Source: Gulosibacter molinativorax
GTDB lineage: Bacteria; Actinomycetota; Actinomycetes; Actinomycetales; Microbacteriaceae
Length of the DNA: 64,000 nt
Direction: 5' to 3'
Assembly: GCF_003010915.2 (NCBI RefSeq)
Contig: NZ_CP028426.1
Span: 2,480,001-2,544,000 of the forward strand
Below are positions 11,668 through 20,959 of this stretch, one piece after another (position 1 is the stretch's first letter; each line of letters begins with the position of its first letter). Both the position numbers and the translations under genes were made by a program. The notes beneath the pieces are model-generated. The model was given only the letters and a program-made list of their open reading frames with translations, was not told where the DNA came from and made no database searches.

Positions 11668-12957
11668 CTAGTCGCCGAGGAGGTTGTGTCGCTCGATGAT
11701 GTGGTCGCGGGCCGGCCCCGTACCGATCGCCGAGATGCGCGCGCCCGAGAGTTCCTCGACCGCGAGCACGTAGTCCTGCGCGTTCTTCGGCAGGTCCTCG
11801 AACTTCTGGATGCCCGAGATGTCCTCTTCCCAGCCCGGGAATTCCTCGTAGATCGGCTTCGCGTGGTGGATGTCGGACTGCGACATCGGCATCTCGTCGA
11901 AGCGCTGGCCCTCGACGTCGTAGGCGACGCATACCGGAATCGTCTCGAATGTCGAGAGCACGTCGAGCTTCGTCATCACGATGTCGGTGAGGCCGTTGAT
12001 GCGCGACGCGTAGCGGGCAACGACCGAGTCGAACCAGCCGGTGCGGCGCGGGCGGCCGGTGGTCGTGCCGAACTCGCCGCCGCGTTCGCGCAGCTTCTCG
12101 CCGAACTCGTCGTCGAGCTCGGTCGGGAACGGCCCGGAACCGACGCGCGTGATGTACGCCTTCTGGATGCCGACGAGCCGGTCGATCTCGCGCGTCGAAA
12201 TACCCGAACCGGTCGCGACACCCCCGGCGGTGGCCGAGGACGAGGTCACGTACGGATAGGTGCCGTGGTCAATATCGAGCATGGTCGCCTGGCCAGCCTC
12301 GAAGACGACGTTCTTGCCCGCCTCGAGCGCCTGGTGCAGCTCGAGCGCGGTGTCGCCGACCATGGGGCGCACGCGCTCCGCGAACGGCAGCAGGCTGTCC
12401 GCGATCTCGTCGACCGAGAACGCGCGGCGGTTGTACGCCTTCACGAGCAGCTCGTTCTTCTGCACGAGCGCGCCCTCGATCTTCTGGCGCAAGATGCCCT
12501 CATCAAAGAGGTCCTGCATCCGAATACCGACGCGCGACATCTTGTCGGCGTAGGTCGGGCCGATGCCGCGACCGGTCGTGCCGATGCGGCGCTTGCCGAG
12601 GAAGCGCTCGGTCACCTGGTCGAGCGCGCGATTGTACTCGGGGATGATGTGCGCGTTGCCCGAGATCCGCAGCTTCGAGATGTCGATGCCGCGCTCATCG
12701 AGGTGCTCGAGCTCTTCGAAGAGCACGTTGAGGTCCACGACCACGCCGTTGCCGATCACCGGTGTCACGCCGGGCGAGAGGATACCGGACGGCAGCAGGT
12801 GCAGCGCGTACTTCTCGTCGCCAATCACGACGGTGTGGCCGGCATTGTTGCCGCCGTTGAACTTCACCACATAGTCGATCCGGTTTCCGAGCAGGTCGGT
12901 CGCTTTGCCCTTACCCTCGTCGCCCCACTGGGTGCCGATGATCGCAATGCCTGGCAT
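11668..12957 (-). CDS. purA: Adenylosuccinate synthetase PurA
   Basis: 429 residues. It joins IMP and Asp using GTP in AMP synthesis. [11 protein letters not shown] (residues 8-18) is the GTP/IMP loop with the catalytic Asp, and GNNAGHT contains the catalytic His. [12 protein letters not shown] and [13 protein letters not shown] are further signatures, as is [19 protein letters not shown] replaces the EGAQGT of E. coli, a variant I associate with actinobacteria. A strong AAGGAGATGAG precedes the ATG. It stands alone here. Confidence 0.97.
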
Positions 12958-13022
12958 GAACTCATCTCCTTGAGGAATGCATCCTTGATTACTGCGCCGT
13001 CAAAGACGCAAACAGGTCAACT

Positions 13023-13463
13023 CTACTGGGCGACGCCATCCAGCTTCTCGATAGCGGCCTCAGCTTCGGAGTCGGCGTCGCGCAAGAGAGCGGTGAGCCG
13101 CTCGACCTCGTCGTTCTCACCGATCGCCTCGGCGGCCCGGCGCAGCTGCCAGAATGATCGCAGCACGCCCTGGTTCGGCTCGTGCGACCACGGAATCGGC
13201 CCCTGGCCACGCCAGCCTGACTTGCGCAGCGCATCCAACCCGCGGTGATAACCAACTCGGCTGTACGCGTAGGCCTCGAGGATGCGGCCGTCGACGAACT
13301 CGCGCTGCGCCGCCTCGGCCCAGGCGAGGGATGATTTGGGATGCTTCTCGACGATAGCCGCGAGCGCGTGCTTTTCGCGGGGCAGGTGGCTGAGGTCATC
13401 GAGTACTTCGGGCTCTTCGTCGAGCCGCGTCTCGGGGATACCAAGGAGATTATTTGAAGTCAT
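13023..13463 (-). CDS. DUF3151 family protein
   Basis: 146 residues matching the actinobacterial DUF3151 family: LPREKHALAAIVEKHPKSSLAWAEAA and the aromatic segment GYHRGLDALRKSGWRGQGPIPW are its conserved parts. The helical, TPR-like N-terminus suggests protein binding. Function is unknown; the gene is widely kept in Actinobacteria near purA or fructose-bisphosphate aldolase genes, as here. A CATAAT hexamer 6 nt from the ATG could make it leaderless. Confidence 0.8.
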   Translation of the reverse strand: MTSNNLLGIPETRLDEEPEVLDDLSHLPREKHALAAIVEKHPKSSLAWAEAAQREFVDGRILEAYAYSRVGYHRGLDALRKSGWRGQGPIPWSHEPNQGVLRSFWQLRRAAEAIGENDEVERLTALLRDADSEAEAAIEKLDGVAQ

Positions 13464-13506
13464 AGTTTCATTATGGCCAGGAACAGGTTAGGTTTCCTTT
13501 CAGTAC

Positions 13507-13631
13507 ACGTGCTCCGGGGTCGGTGAAAATCCGAACCGGTGGTTAAAGTCCACGACCCGCTGGTTTCGGCTGGCGGTTGATTCGGTGTAATTCCGAAACC
13601 GACGGTCATAGTCCGGATGGGAGGCGCGCGT
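13507..13631 (+). ncRNA. FMN riboswitch (RFN element)
   Basis: The conserved RFN blocks appear in order: CCGGGGTCGGTGAAAATCCG, ACCGGTGGTTAAAGTCC, the GTGTAATTCCGAAACCGAC block and GTCATAGTCCGGATGGGAG. P1 forms between ACGTGC (13507-13512) and GCGCGT (13626-13631). The 100-nt leader that follows contains CTCCTCCGGAG before a weak AGAAAG ribosome site, so translational control is plausible. It controls the flavin transporter genes that follow. Confidence 0.95.
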
Positions 13632-13730
13632 GAGCTGCAGAACATCCGAGTTGGCTGGCCTGTAGCGACAACCACATTCGTGCCTTCCCTTGTCTTACCC
13701 ACCTCCTCCGGAGCTGGAAGCAGAAAGACA

Positions 13731-14594
13731 ATGGCACGAAATTCCCGCACCGACTGGTCGCGCATCCTGGCGCCGGTGCTGCTCGCGATCATCGTGGTCG
13801 CTGTTTGGGAGACCGCGGTGCGAAGCGGCGCCGTGAGCGCAATGTTCCTCCCCGCGCCGAGCGACTTGATCGCACGATTCTGGCTCGAGCTGACGCAAGG
13901 ACCACTCCTCGACCACACTTGGCAGACGCTGATCGCCGCGCTGATGGGCACCGTGCTGGCGACGCTGGTCGCGGTTCCGCTCGGCTATCTCATCGCGCGA
14001 ATCGACTGGGTCGACATGGCCGTGACTCCGTACGTCACCGCATCCCAGGCCATCCCCGCCGTCGCCGTTGCGCCGCTACTTGCCCTGTGGATCGGCTACG
14101 GCCTCACGCCGATCGCGATTCTGTGCGCGGTCGTCGCGTTCTTTCCGATGCTCATCACCACGACGATTGGCGTGCGTGCGCTGCCACAGGATGTGCTCGA
14201 GGCGGCTCGGCTTGACGGTGCGAACACGTGGCAATCGCTCGCGTGGGTCGAGGCGCCGCTTGCGATGCCCAGCGTGCTCGCTGGCATCCGCGCGGGTGTC
14301 GCGCTGTCGGTGACCGGCGCCGTGGTCGGCGAGTTCACGATGGGCGGCAAGGGCCTCGGCATGCTGCTCACGCTGTTTCGGGATGCGAACGACACCGAGG
14401 GGATGTTCGCGACGCTCCTCATGCTCGTGATCCTCGCGGTCGGGATGTTCACGGTGCTGCGGGTGCTCGAGTCGCTCGCGAATCGCCGCCAGCGACGCAC
14501 CTCGAGCGACATGCGTCAGCAGCTGGATGCCGCATCCGAGAACGACCAAGTCATGACGGTGCCGCTGGTCGATGCGGCACCTCTCGATCGTTGA
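13731..14594 (+). CDS. ribX: ABC transporter permease under FMN riboswitch (RibX-like flavin uptake)
   Basis: 287 residues with about six membrane helices and the BPD_transp_1 EAA loop (EAARLDGANTWQSLAWVEAPLAMP). It resembles permeases of the ThiXYZ/SsuC type. The FMN riboswitch immediately upstream and the NMT1-like binding protein downstream match the RibXY riboflavin uptake architecture described in other bacteria. ATG 13731 gives a normal N-terminus; the frame is open to 13617, but that part lies in the riboswitch. No ATPase gene is adjacent. The stop codon TGA is part of a family 1 repeat. Confidence 0.85.
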   Translation: MARNSRTDWSRILAPVLLAIIVVAVWETAVRSGAVSAMFLPAPSDLIARFWLELTQGPLLDHTWQTLIAALMGTVLATLVAVPLGYLIARIDWVDMAVTPYVTASQAIPAVAVAPLLALWIGYGLTPIAILCAVVAFFPMLITTTIGVRALPQDVLEAARLDGANTWQSLAWVEAPLAMPSVLAGIRAGVALSVTGAVVGEFTMGGKGLGMLLTLFRDANDTEGMFATLLMLVILAVGMFTVLRVLESLANRRQRRTSSDMRQQLDAASENDQVMTVPLVDAAPLDR

Positions 14595-14659
14595 GTAGCG
14601 CCGAAGGCGCATATCGAAACCCACGCTTATTGAGTAGCGCCGAAGGCGCGTATCGAAAT
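14593..14659 (+). repeat. Two direct family 1 repeat units between ribX and ribY
   Basis: Two nearly identical copies of TTGAGTAGCGCCGAAGGCGC followed by RTATCGAAA (14591-14617 and 14630-14658). Each contains a GCGCC-GAA-GGCGC hairpin. They sit inside an operon, so they may set the permease to binding-protein expression ratio as REP elements do. Confidence 0.8.
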
Positions 14660-14675
14660 ATCAAAGGAGCCCCAA

Positions 14676-15713
14676 ATGTCCACCAACCGATTCCCCCGCG
14701 CGCTGAAGGCACTCGCGACGACGGCCGTCGCCGCCCTCGCCCTCGTGGGCTGCCAGGCGGGCTCGCCCGGCGCATCCGAAACCACGGGGGCAGCCGGAAC
14801 CGGCGAGCCGCTGACGATCGGCTTGACCTACACCCCGAACATCCAGTTTGCGCCGTTCTATGTAGCGGAGGAGCTCGGCTACTTCGACGAGGCGGGCGTG
14901 AACGTCGAGCTGCGCCACCACGGCGAGAGCGAAGAGCTCTTCGGCGCGCTCAAGACCGGCGACGAGCAGCTCGTGTACGCGGGCGGGGACGAGATCGTGC
15001 AGGGCGTCTCGGGCGGAGTGCCCGTGCAGTCGGTTGCGACGCTCTACAACACGTACCCGGCCGTGCTGATCGTGCCCGCTGACTCGGATATTCAGAGCGC
15101 GGCCGACCTCGCTGGCCACTCGGTTGGCACGCCCGGCCCGTACGGTCAGACGTACTTTGCGCTGCTCGCGATGCTCGAGGGCGCTGGGCTGAGTGAGGCG
15201 GACGTCGACGTGCAGCACATCGGCTTCACGCAGCAGGCCGCGCTGTCGTCCGGCAAGGTGGATGCGGTGATGGGCTTCGCGAATAACGACGCGGTGCAGT
15301 TCGCGGCGCAGGGCATGGATGTGCGGGTCATCGAGGCCGTGGACTCTTCGGCTCCGACGCTGGTCGGGCCGGCTCTGGGTGCCGAAACGAGCGTGATTGC
15401 CGAGCGCGGCTCGGACGTGACCGCGGTGCTCGGCGCTGTGAAGCAGGCGATCGAGTACATCGCGCAGAACCCTGACGAGACGATCGAGATCTCGGCCTCG
15501 TACATCCCGACGATGACGACTCAGGAGCAGAAGGACGCGGCCCTCGCGACGCTCGAGGCGACCATCCCGCTGATGGAGGCCGACGGTGACCTGCCGTTGC
15601 TCACGAACAACCCCGACACGTGGGCCGCGATGACCGAGTTCATGCTCGAGGCCGGAATCATCACCGAGCCCGTTGCCCCCGAGGACGCCTTCACCAACGA
15701 GCTGCTGCCGTAG
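14676..15713 (+). CDS. ribY: Flavin ABC transporter substrate-binding lipoprotein (RibY-like, NMT1 domain)
   Basis: 345 residues. A signal peptide ends at a lipobox (LALVGC), followed by an NMT1/ThiY-type periplasmic domain: PNIQFAPFYVAEELGYFDEAGVNVEL is its hallmark opening. It would bind riboflavin or a related flavin outside the membrane and pass it to the RibX-like permease. AAAGGAG precedes the ATG. Substrate assignment rests on the FMN riboswitch, since ThiY (pyrimidine) proteins have the same fold. An ATPase must come from elsewhere in the genome. Confidence 0.85.
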   Translation: MSTNRFPRALKALATTAVAALALVGCQAGSPGASETTGAAGTGEPLTIGLTYTPNIQFAPFYVAEELGYFDEAGVNVELRHHGESEELFGALKTGDEQLVYAGGDEIVQGVSGGVPVQSVATLYNTYPAVLIVPADSDIQSAADLAGHSVGTPGPYGQTYFALLAMLEGAGLSEADVDVQHIGFTQQAALSSGKVDAVMGFANNDAVQFAAQGMDVRVIEAVDSSAPTLVGPALGAETSVIAERGSDVTAVLGAVKQAIEYIAQNPDETIEISASYIPTMTTQEQKDAALATLEATIPLMEADGDLPLLTNNPDTWAAMTEFMLEAGIITEPVAPEDAFTNELLP

Positions 15714-16066
15714 CGCGCGAGGCGCGGCTTGTTGCGTCGCGCCTAGTGCGGCGCCTTCCCGCATCCCCTCCGCAAATCCGTCACTCGATGTAGTCGAGGA
15801 TGCATCAAATGCATTGAGTGACGGGCCTGCGGGGTGACCCTAAGGGATCCGTCACCCGATGCAGTCCCAGGCCCACCAAGTGCATCCAGCGACGGGCCTG
15901 CCCAGCGACCCCCAGAGATACGTCACTCGACGTTCTTGAGCCGTCTCCGAGTGCATCGAGTGCCGGATTTGTATGGAAGCCAACCGCAGACCCGTCACTC
16001 GATGCAGTCTCCGGCTCACCAAGTGCATCCAGCGACGAGTTTGCTGAGGGGACGGGCGTGCTCCTC
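15714..16066. repeat. Array of four palindromic family 2 repeats (CGTCACTCGATG...CATCGAGTGACG)
   Basis: Four imperfect palindromic units begin near 15778, 15849, 15919 and 15993, each with a CGTCACTCGATG-like left arm and a GTGCATCCAGCGACG-like right arm, spaced about 70 bp. No gene is supported here. The units end just before the first HNH_repeat gene. Unit sequence is variable, arms are inverted, and there are no cas genes, so this is not a CRISPR. Confidence 0.8.
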
Positions 16067-16072
16067 TATGGT
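16067..16072 (+). promoter_or_regulatory. -10 element (TATGGT) of leaderless HNH_repeat gene
   Basis: TATGGT, 7 nt, then ATG 16080. The ATG at 16068 lies inside this hexamer, so 16080 is the more likely start. Confidence 0.5.
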
Positions 16073-16079
16073 GGAACGC

Positions 16080-16751
16080 ATGATGCCGGAATCGGAGCTC
16101 GTCGCCCATCTTCAGACGTGGGCTAGCCAAGCATCCTCGTTTCGGCTGACTGACTACGGAGATTGGGCGCGCGCGAACGAGGCGCCCAGCGCATCCACGC
16201 TAATCCTCCGCTTCGGGAGCTGGAGCGAGGCGATGCGCGCCGCCGGGCTCGAGGACAAGATCACGAGCGTGCGGCAGCAGCGGCGCGTGATCTCGAACGC
16301 GGAGCTGTGGGCGAGCGTGGTCGCGTACCTCCGCGCCGACCGCAAGAGCCATTCGTTCGCCGACCTCAAGGTGTGGATGCAGCAGCAAGAATTGCCGAGC
16401 GCCGCGACGGTGCGGGCACGGCTCGGCAAGTGGTCGGAGGTGCGGGACACCGCCGAGAAAGTGATCGCCTACGCTGACGCCCAATCGCCAACGCCTTGGG
16501 AATTTGCGGACGAGGTGCTCTCGATCGTGCCCGGCGAAGGTCCGCGGCGCGAGCACACCGACGACGCCTGCTATTCGGCCCTCCATCGAGTCGCGACGGT
16601 GCTGGATGGGCCAATCACTGTGGCGCAGTATGACAAGGTTCGTGCCCCTGCCGAACCGAGCTCGGGCGTGCTCATGAAGCGATACGGCAGCTGGTACGAG
16701 TCGCTGCAGTGGGCCGATCTCGGCGACCGCGCGACGTCGGCGCGGGCGTAG
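16080..16751 (+). CDS. HNH_repeat (homing-endonuclease-associated repeat) protein A, no nuclease domain
   Basis: About 223 residues that break into three units of roughly 50-55 residues. Unit 1 ends in LRFGSWSEAMRAAGL, unit 2 in RLGKWSEVRDTA and unit 3 in KRYGSWYESLQWADL. The FGSWxEAxxxAGL ending is the signature of the HNH_repeat family (PF18780), small modules thought to bind DNA beside homing endonucleases. No HNH, GIY or other catalytic motif is present. It is a clear paralogue of the next gene, matching it over the full repeat region, but lacks that gene's N-terminal HTH. GC content is host-like. Function unknown; DNA binding is inferred. Confidence 0.75.
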   Translation: MMPESELVAHLQTWASQASSFRLTDYGDWARANEAPSASTLILRFGSWSEAMRAAGLEDKITSVRQQRRVISNAELWASVVAYLRADRKSHSFADLKVWMQQQELPSAATVRARLGKWSEVRDTAEKVIAYADAQSPTPWEFADEVLSIVPGEGPRREHTDDACYSALHRVATVLDGPITVAQYDKVRAPAEPSSGVLMKRYGSWYESLQWADLGDRATSARA

Positions 16752-16780
16752 TCGCCGCTCTGCAACGGATCTCACGAATA

Positions 16781-16803
16781 TTGTCGGTGGCTGGTGCCAC
16801 TAT
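16781..16803 (+). promoter_or_regulatory. PafBC/RecA-independent damage-type promoter before HNH_repeat gene B
   Basis: TTGTCGGTG, exactly 8 nt, then CACTAT. This fits the mycobacterial RecA-independent (PafBC-dependent) motif TTGTCRGTG-N8-TANNNT except for C instead of T at the first -10 base. A transcript would start near 16810, leaving a leader of about 38 nt with GGAG before ATG 16848. Confidence 0.65.
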
Positions 16804-16847
16804 CCATTCATTGGACGTGAAAGTTATCGACGACGTTGGAGAACCCA

Positions 16848-17888
16848 ATGACCCAAGACAAACCTGTGGAGAGTGGCCTCTTTGAACGGGACAGTCGGAT
16901 CGTTGCTCGCCTGCTGGACGGTCAAAATCTCCAGCAAGTTGGCGAGGAGTTCGGACTTACCCGCGAACGCATCCGACAGATAGCTAAAAAGCGCGGCGTG
17001 GATGTGCTGAAAATTAGAGAATCCAAGAAGAACGGTCAAGCTCGGAAATTTCGAGACCTAAGTTCGGCCGTTGAAAAGTTCTCAATTCAGCATCCGCTAG
17101 CGAGCGTGGATGAGATCGCGTTGAAATTCAACTTGGATCTCGAAACTGCGGAGCGGGCACTCGGGCGTCGAGTGGCCATTCATAGGCCACGCGAGCTCGC
17201 CGTCAGTCGGACGTTCACTGACGACGAAATGCTCGACCATCTCAGAATCTGGGCAAAGTCAGCATCAAATTTCCGCCGAGAGGACTACGAGAACTGGGCG
17301 GAAGATACTGATTTTGTATCACCAGCGACGTTGACTCTTCGATTCGGTAGTTGGGGCGAGTCAATGCGTCGAGCAGGTCTCGGGCACTTGACCGAGAACC
17401 GATCACTTCGGAAAGTTATCTCCGACCTCGAACTCTGGGCTTGCGTAGTTCAATACTTGAAATCAGATCGCGATCGATACTCATTCGGAGATCTCGGTGT
17501 TTGGCTCCGAAAATCCGCCCTGCCAAGCGCAGAACTCGTACGGTCGCGCCTCGGTAAGTGGCTAGACGTGCGCGAAACCGCACTTCGAATCATCGATTAC
17601 GAGAACAACTCAGCACCGGGCACGTGGACATTTGCGGACGAGGTTTTAAGCACTGTCCCCGGTGAGGCAAAGCGACGCGAATTTTCTCCTGAGGAAACCC
17701 GCGCAGCTCTGAGACGGGTGGCTGCGTTAGACCGAGGAAAGATCACCGTGGCGAAATATGATTCGCTGCGGTTAGAAGACGAACCCAGTTCGGGCTTAAT
17801 TATGACTCGAAATGGCGGCAGCTGGCACGATGCACTCGTCGACGCCGGCCTCGGCGACCGTGCGAATCGCCCACGCGACAGGTCGTAG
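16848..17888 (+). CDS. HNH_repeat protein B with N-terminal sigma-4.2-like HTH
   Basis: 346 residues. Residues about 15-50 contain QQVGEEFGLTRERIRQIAKK, nearly identical to the region 4.2 HTH of housekeeping sigma factors, followed by a second helical pair. Then come three HNH_repeat units ending in LRFGSWGESMRRAGL, RLGKWLDVRETAL and GGSWHDALVDAGL, collinear with protein A. No nuclease motif is visible. Base composition is clearly more AT-rich than its neighbours and GGATGC hexamers are scarce, which suggests later acquisition. GGAG precedes ATG 16848. The damage-type promoter upstream suggests induction by DNA damage. A regulator or DNA-binding accessory factor is inferred. Confidence 0.75.
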   Translation: MTQDKPVESGLFERDSRIVARLLDGQNLQQVGEEFGLTRERIRQIAKKRGVDVLKIRESKKNGQARKFRDLSSAVEKFSIQHPLASVDEIALKFNLDLETAERALGRRVAIHRPRELAVSRTFTDDEMLDHLRIWAKSASNFRREDYENWAEDTDFVSPATLTLRFGSWGESMRRAGLGHLTENRSLRKVISDLELWACVVQYLKSDRDRYSFGDLGVWLRKSALPSAELVRSRLGKWLDVRETALRIIDYENNSAPGTWTFADEVLSTVPGEAKRREFSPEETRAALRRVAALDRGKITVAKYDSLRLEDEPSSGLIMTRNGGSWHDALVDAGLGDRANRPRDRS

Positions 17889-17976
17889 CGAATCGGCCGG
17901 ATGACGAATCCATCCCCGCGCATCCGCCTACCCAGCCGCGGTACTACCCTCGAGGGTGGACTTGGAGAGGGAGCGG

Positions 17977-18606
17977 ATGAGCGAAACACACGAGCTATCG
18001 ACGTACGGGGTTGGGCCGTGGGAGGGCGAGTGGCCCGACGATCCGCGATACGATCGCGAACTGCTCGAGCACGGTGACACGCGCAACGTCATCGATCGCT
18101 TCCGCTACTGGACGATGGATGCGATCATCGCCGACCTCGATGAGACGCGGCATCCATTCCACGTCGCGATCGAGAACTGGCAGCACGACATGAACATCGG
18201 CTCGATCGTGCGCTCGGCGAACGCATTCGGCGCGAATACCGTGCATATCGTGGGTCGCAAGCGCTGGAATAAGCGCGGCGCGATGGTCACCGATCGATAC
18301 CAGCACGTCATGCACCACGAGACGGTGGATGCGTTCGTCGAGTGGGCGCGGGGTGCCGGCATGCCGATCATCGCGATCGACAATGTTCCCGGATGCGTGC
18401 CGATCGAGACGACGCCGCTGCCCGAGCGCTGCGTGTTCCTGTTTGGGCAGGAGGGCCCGGGACTCACGAAGGCCGCCGTTGCCGCCGCCGAGCAGGTGAT
18501 TGAGATTACGCAGTTCGGGTCGACGCGCTCGATCAATGCATCCGCTGCCGCCGCCGTGACGATGCACGACTGGGTGCTGCAGCACGTCTACGGCCGCAAG
18601 CCTTAG
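17977..18606 (+). CDS. TrmH/SpoU family RNA 2'-O-ribose methyltransferase
   Basis: 209 residues of the trefoil-knot SPOUT class. NWQHDMNIGSIVRSANAFGANTVHIVG is motif 1 with the catalytic Arg; LFGQEGPGL is motif 2; and GSTRSINASAAAAVTMHDWV motif 3, where the knot binds SAM. The substrate RNA (tRNA or rRNA) cannot be told from sequence alone. ATG 17977 has GAGAGGGAG before it; a GTG at 17956 is in frame but lacks such a site. It lies between the HNH_repeat pair and a family 2 repeat array. Confidence 0.9.
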   Translation: MSETHELSTYGVGPWEGEWPDDPRYDRELLEHGDTRNVIDRFRYWTMDAIIADLDETRHPFHVAIENWQHDMNIGSIVRSANAFGANTVHIVGRKRWNKRGAMVTDRYQHVMHHETVDAFVEWARGAGMPIIAIDNVPGCVPIETTPLPERCVFLFGQEGPGLTKAAVAAAEQVIEITQFGSTRSINASAAAAVTMHDWVLQHVYGRKP

Positions 18607-18622
18607 TCGGGCGTAATACTGA

Positions 18623-18790
18623 ACCGCATCGAGTGACGGATCGCTGGCGGCCGCCCCACAGGCCCGTCACTGGATGCACTTGGAAGCCCCGCGACCGCAT
18701 CGAGCGACGGATCATTGGCCGGCCCTCCCGCAAGCCCGTCGCTGGATGCACTTGGAAGCCTCGCGATTACATCGAGCGACGGATTTGCCG
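18623..18790. repeat. Family 2 palindromic repeat array, about 70-bp period
   Basis: CATCGAGTGACGGATC... and CCGTCACTGGATGCACTTG alternate through two and a half units of about 70 bp, sharing arms with 15778-16040 and 29044-29212. It lies between the convergent trmH-type and DNA methyltransferase genes and may be a bidirectional terminator. Confidence 0.75.
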
Positions 18791-18800
18791 AAGTAGGGAG

Positions 18801-19664
18801 CTAGCCCGCGTAGAACGCGACGTCCGCATCCGCGAAGCGCCGCCGCATCGTCGCGATCGCCTCCGGATTCTGGTCGACCAGCACGAACCGCCGCCCGAGC
18901 GACATCGCCGCGGCACCCGTCGTGCCGCTGCCGCCGAAGAAGTCGAGCACCCAATCCCCCGGCCGGCTGCTCGCCGCGATCACGCGCCGCAAAATCCCGA
19001 GTGGCTTCTGCGTCGGGTACCCCGTCTTCTCGTGCCCGTTCGGCGACACGATCGTGTGCCACCACACATCGGTCGGCAGCTTCCCGCGCGCCACCTTCTC
19101 GGGCGTGACGAGCCCCGGCGCCATGTACGGCTCCCGGTCAACCTCTTCGCTGTCGAAGTGATACCGCCGCGGATCCTTCACGTACACCAGAATCGTGTCG
19201 TGCTTCGACGGCCACCTCGACTTCGAGCGGGCGCCGTAGTCGTACGCCCAGATGATCTCGTTGAGGAAGCACTCGCGCCCGAACAGCGCATCCAGCAGCA
19301 CCTTCGCGTAGTGCACCTCGCGGTAGTCGAGGTGCAGATAGAGCGTTCCGGTCGCATCCAGCAGCCGCCAGGCCTCCTCGAGCCGCGGCTCGAGAAACTC
19401 CCAGTAGTCCTCGAACGCGTCGTCGTACGAGGTGACCACCCCGCGCACAGTCTCGTACGTCTGCCCCTTGAACCCGATCCGCGTGCCCGACTCCGACCGC
19501 ACCGACTTCGTCGTCTGCCGCAGCTGCTTCCGCCCCGTATTGAACGGCGGGTCCAGATAGATCAGCTGAAAGGATGCATCGGGCAGCGATCGCAGGACCG
19601 GCAGGTTATCGCCGTGAATGACCGCATTGGGCCCGTCCGGCGCCCACGAAAACTCGCCCGTCAT
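18801..19664 (-). CDS. Orphan DNA methyltransferase, beta-class N6-adenine/N4-cytosine
   Basis: 287 residues. Catalytic motif IV LDPPFNTG (about residues 37-44) comes before the SAM-binding motif I DFFGGSGTT (about 243-251), the order of beta-class enzymes. TQKPLGILRRVI is motif X. The DPPF form is most often N6-adenine methylation, but N4-cytosine cannot be excluded. No restriction endonuclease, specificity subunit or Vsr gene is next to it, so it is either an orphan epigenetic enzyme or a relic. The target sequence is unknown. Confidence 0.88.
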   Translation of the reverse strand: MTGEFSWAPDGPNAVIHGDNLPVLRSLPDASFQLIYLDPPFNTGRKQLRQTTKSVRSESGTRIGFKGQTYETVRGVVTSYDDAFEDYWEFLEPRLEEAWRLLDATGTLYLHLDYREVHYAKVLLDALFGRECFLNEIIWAYDYGARSKSRWPSKHDTILVYVKDPRRYHFDSEEVDREPYMAPGLVTPEKVARGKLPTDVWWHTIVSPNGHEKTGYPTQKPLGILRRVIAASSRPGDWVLDFFGGSGTTGAAAMSLGRRFVLVDQNPEAIATMRRRFADADVAFYAG

Positions 19665-19673
19665 CCCTGCATC

Positions 19674-20360
19674 CTATGGCTGGAGCGAATCGAATTGTTC
19701 CGCGGAGGTCGCAAAGCAGTAGTACGAGCGGATGCCCGCATCCCACTCGACCTCGTCGGCTGGCCAGCGCACCTGCACCTGCAGGTCCGGGATGCTCGCA
19801 GCGGCATCGAGGTTGATCGCGTCGGGCGACTGGCAGGCAATCATCGCGCGCTCGCGCAGTGCATCCTCGCCGGGCCAGGCTTCACCGTCGAGGACCGATT
19901 CCACGGGCACGATCGCCGTGAGCTGCGCCGTGTGCGACTCGTCGCACGAGATCGGCGCGAAGTCGGACGCCCAGGGCGTCTCGAGCGTCGCGAAACAGTC
20001 CCCCGCTTCGAGCGTCGCGAGGGTGGATGCGGCGGGCTGGGTCGTCGCAGGCACGGCCGAGTTGGGTGCCTCGGCGCGGCCGAAGGGCGACCAGATCCAT
20101 CCGGCGACCCCCGCGGCGAGGACGATTACCGCGCAGATCGCGAGGTTGCGCCCGAGCGGCGAATGGCGTCGCGCATCCTGCCGCCGAGCGGCTTGGCCGT
20201 CGCGCCGCGCTCCAGCCGCAGAGTCCCCCACCTCGCGCAGCGACGCGCCAGCACCAGCACCAGCAGAGCCCCGGCCCTCGCGCCGCGAACTTCGCGTGCC
20301 GTCAGCAGGACCGCGAGCGCCGGACGACTGCCTGTCGGAAGAGGGTTGTGAACCGGCCAC
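19674..20360 (-). CDS. Membrane-anchored septum-formation-like (Septum_form) protein
   Basis: About 228 residues. A long basic, Ser/Arg-rich cytoplasmic tail (1-65), one membrane helix (LAICAVIVLAAGVAGWIW) and an extracellular domain with GDCFATLE, ISCDESHTAQL, IACQSP and YYCFAT. The Cys positions fit the Septum_form domain, which probably forms disulfides. The proposed start is GTG 20360, but the low-complexity tail makes it uncertain. Function in division is only suggested by the family name. It follows pyrE on the minus strand by 44 nt. Confidence 0.6.
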   Translation of the reverse strand: MAGSQPSSDRQSSGARGPADGTRSSRREGRGSAGAGAGASLREVGDSAAGARRDGQAARRQDARRHSPLGRNLAICAVIVLAAGVAGWIWSPFGRAEAPNSAVPATTQPAASTLATLEAGDCFATLETPWASDFAPISCDESHTAQLTAIVPVESVLDGEAWPGEDALRERAMIACQSPDAINLDAAASIPDLQVQVRWPADEVEWDAGIRSYYCFATSAEQFDSLQP

Positions 20361-20404
20361 GCCGTCACCGGCCCGGCCGTCGTGGCGCCCGCGAACGCAT
20401 CCCG

Positions 20405-20959
20405 CTAAACCGCTTCGAGGCCGAGGTCGTCGAGGCCGATCGCGTAGCGGTACGGGTAGCCCGCATCCTCGATGCGCTGGCCGGCGCCGGTCGCGCGGTC
20501 GACGATCGTGCAGACGGCGACGACGTTCGCGCCAACCTTCTCGAGCGCCTCGATCGCGGCGAGCGGCGAGCCACCGGTGGTCGACGTGTCTTCGAGCACG
20601 ACGACCCGCTTGCCGTCGACATCCGGACCCTCGACCTGCTTGCCGCGGCCGTGGTCCTTCGGCTCCTTGCGCACAACGAACGCGTCGATCGCGCGGCCCT
20701 TCGACACCGCGTGGTGCATCACTGCGTTCGCGAGCGGATCCGCACCCATCGTCAGGCCGCCGACGGCGTCGATGTCACCGAACTCGTCCACGAGCTCGAG
20801 CAGCACCTCGCCGATGAGGGGCGCCGCGCGGTGGTCGAGCGAAAGCTTGCGCAGATCGATGTAGTACGAGGCCTTCTTGCCGCTGGTGAGCGTGAAGTCG
20901 CCGTGGAAAACGGCCTCGTCGCTGATGAGCTGGATGAGTTGAGTACGTGCGTCGGTCAC
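20405..20959 (-). CDS. pyrE: Orotate phosphoribosyltransferase PyrE
   Basis: 184 residues. It converts orotate and PRPP to OMP in pyrimidine synthesis. FTLTSGKKASYYIDLRK is the N-terminal signature and VVVLEDTSTTGGSPLAA the PRPP-binding loop. The start is a GTG with a TACGCT -10 hexamer 7 nt upstream, so the message is probably leaderless. It is divergent from xthA with overlapping promoter regions. Confidence 0.95.
   Translation of the reverse strand: MTDARTQLIQLISDEAVFHGDFTLTSGKKASYYIDLRKLSLDHRAAPLIGEVLLELVDEFGDIDAVGGLTMGADPLANAVMHHAVSKGRAIDAFVVRKEPKDHGRGKQVEGPDVDGKRVVVLEDTSTTGGSPLAAIEALEKVGANVVAVCTIVDRATGAGQRIEDAGYPYRYAIGLDDLGLEAV

Follow-up and report, generated by a model that had tools for sequence, protein, structure and literature searches.

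Tandem HNH_repeat proteins of Gulosibacter molinativorax, one fused to a sigma-4.2-like helix-turn-helix behind a candidate PafBC-type promoter

HNH_repeat modules – Pfam family PF18780, named for homing endonucleases – have an entry in the databases and have hardly been studied. In the open-licence PMC literature, HNH_repeat and PF18780 appear in one paper, as a table row, and the phrase 'homing endonuclease associated repeat' was not found; among the listed titles and opening parts of abstracts on homing endonucleases with helix-turn-helix (HTH), HNH or NUMOD terms, no fusion such as the one described here appears. PafBC, the regulator of the second system that concerns us, the PafBC (RecA-NDp) regulon, is activated by DNA damage in mycobacteria. 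Here, we examine two tandem genes, A and B, in a 64,000-nucleotide stretch of the Gulosibacter molinativorax genome (the window). Both encode HNH_repeat proteins, and B is in addition fused to a sigma-4.2-like HTH and lies behind a PafBC-type candidate promoter. The features are:

16080..16751, forward strand: gene A, 223 aa, in tandem with gene B and upstream of it on the same strand
16781..16803, forward strand: PafBC (RecA-NDp)-type candidate promoter of gene B, TTGTCGGTG-N8-CACTAT, one mismatch from tTGTCRgtg-8nt-TAnnnT
16838..16841, forward strand: GGAG, the likely ribosome-binding site of gene B judging from the sequence, 6 nt before the ATG at 16848
16848..17888, forward strand: gene B, an open reading frame (ORF) of 346 aa
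16899..16991, forward strand: Sigma70_r4 match (Pfam PF04545) in gene B, aa 18-48, with recognition helix TRERIRQI

Gene A matches HNH_repeat in three stretches (61.2 bits, E 1.2e-16; curated cut-off 26), giving modules at about aa 4-54, 73-133 and 161-211, and has no HTH fusion. Gene B exceeds the same cut-off (31.1 bits, E 3.1e-7) in two stretches, and its third module comes from the AlphaFold2 model and from alignment with gene A, which is 51% identical to B 123-343 over 222 columns. In B, the modules (aa 125-175, 193-253 and 281-332, about four helices each in the model) are preceded by a sigma-4.2-like HTH (HTH1, aa 8-48), a long helix (53-81) and a predicted second HTH-like helix pair (87-112). 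The Sigma70_r4 match scores 28.8 bits (E 8.5e-7), above its curated cut-off, and the remaining Pfam matches of B (HTH_28, PanZ and F-box_5) are all below theirs. The AlphaFold2 model of B is all-helical, with good local confidence and unsure domain packing (pLDDT 80.8, pTM 0.32), and that of A has the same three modules (pLDDT 83.8, pTM 0.44).

Pfam (E up to 10) and NCBIfam (E up to 1) gave no nuclease family for either protein, and the HNH or other nuclease domain that defines an HNH homing endonuclease was detected in neither. A preliminary description of this DNA had proposed two tandem HNH_repeat paralogues, each of three modules and without a nuclease, the second with a sigma-4.2-like HTH; the profile searches and a sigma alignment bear this out, except that Pfam gives two stretches in B. 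Both proteins match phrog_22655, a phage family with no assigned function. Fold searches returned no PDB match at E <= 0.001 for A or B and nothing at that threshold for B in BFVD, a profile of the repeat part reached a best E of 0.11 against PDB sequences, and the PADLOC models gave no family for either protein (E 0.01). Residues 22-72 of B share 46% identity with part of the host SigA-type factor (E 5.7e-4), but a sigma factor has regions 2 and 4, and Sigma70_r4 is the only sigma region matched in B.

The published PafBC motif is tTGTCRgtg-8nt-TannnT (PMC5656591), alternatively given as TGTCGG-10N-TA-3N-T (PMC8151990). The full site before gene B, TTGTCGGTGGCTGGTGCCACTAT (16781-16803), ends 44 nt upstream of the ATG, has as its sole mismatch to TTGTCRGTG-N8-TAnnnT the first T of the imperfect -10, CACTAT, and has the 11-mer TGTCGGTGGCT in common with the site before recA in the same genome. 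With up to two mismatches the strict consensus gave 268 genome matches versus 161 for the reversed pattern, so only near matches carry much meaning. A loosened pattern chosen so as to cover gene B's site, TGTCRGTG-N9-ANNNT, gave 30 matches versus 3 reversed, and TTGTCRGTG-N9-ANNNT gave 4 versus 0. At 21 of the 30 sites, among them that of gene B, an ORF of 80 aa or more begins within 160 bp downstream, some of these ORFs being doubtful; the other nine sites have no such ORF. Nine of ten downstream ORFs scanned matched Pfam at 1e-6, with families including ClpX, RecA, UvrD helicase, DEAD/ResIII helicase, N6 methylase, DUF222, DUF4357 and LuxS. NCBIfam, applied to five of these, named ClpX, RecA and RadA with scores over the cut-off; a uvrD/pcrA-type fragment truncated at the locus end fell short of it for PcrA, and the ResIII helicase behind a PafBC-type motif received no name at 1e-60.

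Ahead of recA there is also a gene that we take, by eye, to be clgR-like, with a one-mismatch PafBC-type site. Two of the three WYL-domain matches in the genome are tandem ORFs (open frames of 345 and 352 aa), which we infer from this arrangement to be PafB/PafC-like. The near-match site, the company that the motif keeps (recA, clpX, radA) and the tandem WYL ORFs together make the gene B promoter a good PafBC candidate, and this was, on sequence grounds, the best upheld of the earlier proposals. Gene B differs from described members of the regulon in its -10, and its product is no known repair protein. No PafBC motif was found upstream of gene A in its three carrier genomes, and a promoter and terminator scan of 15600-18700 gave no sigma-70-type promoter for gene A and no terminator-like site. 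Elsewhere in this genome, a DUF222 gene (L119, C1 1251875) and a DUF4357 gene (L131, 2307131) also lie behind PafBC-type motifs and are further candidates for a damage regulon.

We give about an even chance to the reading that B is a nuclease-free, sequence-specific DNA-binding protein, drawn from a phage or mobile pool of HTH-plus-HNH_repeat proteins and transcribed from a PafBC-type damage promoter. DNA damage would render PafBC active, as in mycobacteria; RNA polymerase with PafBC would start transcription near 16810, and B would accumulate. The N-terminal HTH would read a short DNA motif, the three HNH_repeat modules, as small helical DNA-binding units, would extend the site, and B would act by occupancy – as a transcription regulator or roadblock, or as a site shield – and not by cutting. 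What we observe are the domains, the failure to detect a nuclease family, the motif and the genes it precedes in this genome, the moderately supported separation of A and B in a tree, and the lack of a conserved pair; the function of A and B, including DNA binding, induction and mode of action, and the direction of transfer we infer.

Relatives outside the genus were sought in 398 family genomes, 396 phylum genomes, an 84,980-species collection, and phage, plasmid and viral collections. With B as query, the family genomes yielded none outside the genus at E 1e-5 except a 343-aa protein (G248), which has Sigma70_r4 and HNH_repeat above cut-off and is 29% identical over B 13-134. It resembles B in length and comes from the same family, but its neighbourhood is of a defence type: the gene that directly follows it on the same strand matches HmaB (PADLOC, E 0), a term that occurs in PMC8565338, and helicase genes are nearby. 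A profile of the HTH and HNH_repeat together matched 286 of the phylum genomes at 1e-7, most of the matches listed covering just the HTH part, of sigma-factor type; among them, one match outside the window's genome spans both parts, a protein of 298 aa with this layout (G498). The matches listed to the repeat part only were in G740 and G573, with HNH_repeat above the Pfam cut-off, and in G702, below it (21.8 bits, in a mechanically read ORF). Two peptide patterns from the repeat part recovered only two Gulosibacter records from the 84,980-species collection.

The pattern TRER[IV]RQI is present at 23 or more confirmed viral loci, in proteins of many kinds. Among 23 of these, all with translations inspected, two have HNH_repeat as well, and both were scanned with Pfam: L088 (IMGVR_UViG_3300015371_000306), with capsid-type neighbours, and L090 (IMGVR_UViG_3300035148_000219), with helicase-, thyX- and dCTP-deaminase-like neighbours, the roles being assigned by ORF reading. 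Like B, they have an N-terminal sigma-4-like HTH followed by HNH_repeat and no nuclease family, and L088 shows a further HTH-type match that stays under its cut-off, where B has a predicted second HTH. They differ in being just 25-26% identical in the matched parts and in having two and one Pfam repeat stretches, respectively; the Sigma70_r4 match of L090 is below cut-off (22.5 versus 24.1 bits). A PafBC motif was not found upstream of the four distant relatives checked, including the G248 protein, L088 and L090. A search with L088 125-275 gave two matches among 843 candidates, L088 itself and P0023, whose precomputed Pfam labels are HNH_repeat and a LexA DNA-binding domain. When ten proteins were scanned with Pfam, both families were above cut-off in five (L088, G498, G248, P0002 and P0012), and in P0003 the HTH was present with HNH_repeat below cut-off. 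In the phage and plasmid collections a protein search at E 1e-3 found no B homologues, and none were confirmed in viral scans with the 428-aa P0010 or with an A/B repeat alignment. The predicted layout of HTH plus HNH_repeat without a nuclease thus recurs beyond this locus: within the family in a second genus (G248), within the phylum in a second family (G498), and on two viral contigs (L088 and L090).

Other proteins show related combinations. On four viral contigs (L093, L096, L098 and L100) a TRERVRQI-type HTH seems, from translations read by eye, to be fused to GIY-YIG-like and HNH-like parts. The 428-aa family P0003-P0011 has a sigma-4-like HTH in mid-protein, a weak Pfam HNH_repeat match in P0003, and an N-terminal stretch that by eye resembles the RNA polymerase alpha C-terminal domain.

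Within the genus, gene A is present in three of 11 genomes and gene B in one, the pair thus occurring once and A without B twice; the other matches of the genus search are sigma-factor-type HTHs. The orthologues of gene A in G. chungangensis (78% identical) and Gulosibacter sp. 10 (64%) bear the NCBI name 'homing endonuclease associated repeat-containing protein'; across six relatives the identity is 64-83%. The order of an ATP-binding cassette (ABC) substrate-binding protein gene followed by a trmH-like gene is kept in the window and in all ten other genus genomes, and gene A occupies the intergenic slot between the two in its three carriers, starting about 10 to 30 bp past the transporter gene in two relatives; here a repeat array intervenes. 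The proposal of a conserved two-gene system is therefore not supported, no pair being found in relatives: A and B do not form a conserved unit, and A is a paralogue that lacks the HTH and keeps a constant position behind the ABC-transporter gene.

Gene B has a GC content of 0.549, and of 0.562 at third codon positions, versus 0.668 and 0.830 in gene A, and of all 1041-bp stretches in the window the one with the lowest GC begins at 16801, overlapping gene B. In a nine-row, midpoint-rooted tree with P0002 on a long branch, B falls outside the gene A clade with moderate support (93/93, slightly short of the level that the tool stars; 92% of 200 bootstrap trees). Because of its low GC and this branching, B was most likely acquired and not copied from the neighbouring A, as the preliminary description had supposed from its AT-richness; the same branching disfavours B as a recent duplicate of the host gene A. 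Depletion of the GGATGC hexamer, offered as a further sign of acquisition, was rejected as not significant: B has two and A three, and 19% of the window's 1041-bp stretches have two or fewer. P0002, on a 2.4-kb contig, was the only relative spanning all of B among 12 matches (7995 candidates scored); it is 48% identical, with the HTH kept much better than the remainder.

Beyond the two genes, the transporter upstream is probably for riboflavin or a precursor, its permease and substrate-binding protein genes following a flavin mononucleotide (FMN) riboswitch at 13506-13632 on the forward strand (Rfam RF00050, 103 bits). The riboswitch was the sole Rfam match over 12500-20500, a scan that was also the only check for introns. 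On the far side, a CcrM-like adenine methylase gene (18804-19664, reverse strand) adjoins the trmH-like gene in the same three genomes as gene A; G005, a genome without gene A, has an 80% homologue at another place. Palindromes lie on both sides:

15776-16060 and 18623-18784: palindromic repeat units of 71/72 bp, flanking the locus

The arm CGTCRCTSGATGCA has 24 exact matches in the genome (control 0), five at the locus and 19 elsewhere, the latter at ten other places by our grouping. The arrays reported earlier are thus present but not specific to the locus; they are a dispersed repeat family resembling repetitive extragenic palindromic (REP) elements, and with 19 of 24 arms elsewhere we rejected them as specific operators of A and B.

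Gene B could be explained otherwise. B, and A before it, may derive from a homing-type mobile element as a decayed or accessory component, specificity halves that lost the nuclease or never had one and are carried as near-neutral passengers; we think this unlikely, although the naming of PF18780, the similar layout in stand-alone genes on viral contigs, and the AT-richness of B and its presence in one genus genome all speak for it. Both reading frames are intact, however, A retains its identity to six relatives and its one slot in the three placed genomes, B and P0002 preferentially keep the HTH, and B has its own promoter-like site. It is distinctly improbable that the HTH–HNH_repeat protein is a regulatory or recognition subunit of a DNA modification or defence system, working with a methylase. 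The position of the G248 relative beside the HmaB-matching gene and helicase genes points that way, as does the co-occurrence of gene A with the CcrM-like gene, but the former is a single locus, the Gulosibacter methylase gene has the opposite orientation, is separated by trmH and has its homologue in the A-less G005, and PADLOC matched neither A nor B. A role in policing DNA, as first suggested, would find support in that one G248 neighbourhood and none beyond it.

B might also mimic sigma region 4, with HTH1 binding -35-like TTGAC/TTGTC after damage and repressing or retuning promoters, perhaps at its own TTGTC, which we regard as very unlikely. Nine of 13 checked -35-contact positions are kept in B, and the RFG stretch of the host SigA-type factor, comprising two core-binding positions by our mapping, is a gap in B. 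Against this, HTHs of the TRER[IV]RQI type occur commonly in varied viral proteins (at least 23 loci), so that the motif does not by itself define the target, the placement of the gap differs between two sigma alignments, and the binding is a prediction. A long shot is the fuller version, in which damage-induced B mimics sigma region 4, keeping most of the checked -35 readers without the RFG core-docking stretch and with a site lengthened by the three HNH_repeat modules. If so, B on TTGAC/TTGTC-type promoters, perhaps with its own PafBC element among them, would reset or damp transcription after damage, and a host regulator would have been made from phage homing-type parts.

B, an HNH_repeat protein with no detected nuclease, a sigma-4-like HTH and a promoter of damage type, offers a ready test of whether HNH_repeat modules bind DNA alone. 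If B proves to be both induced and binding, phage or homing-type parts would have been drawn into a bacterial damage response outside the mycobacteria.
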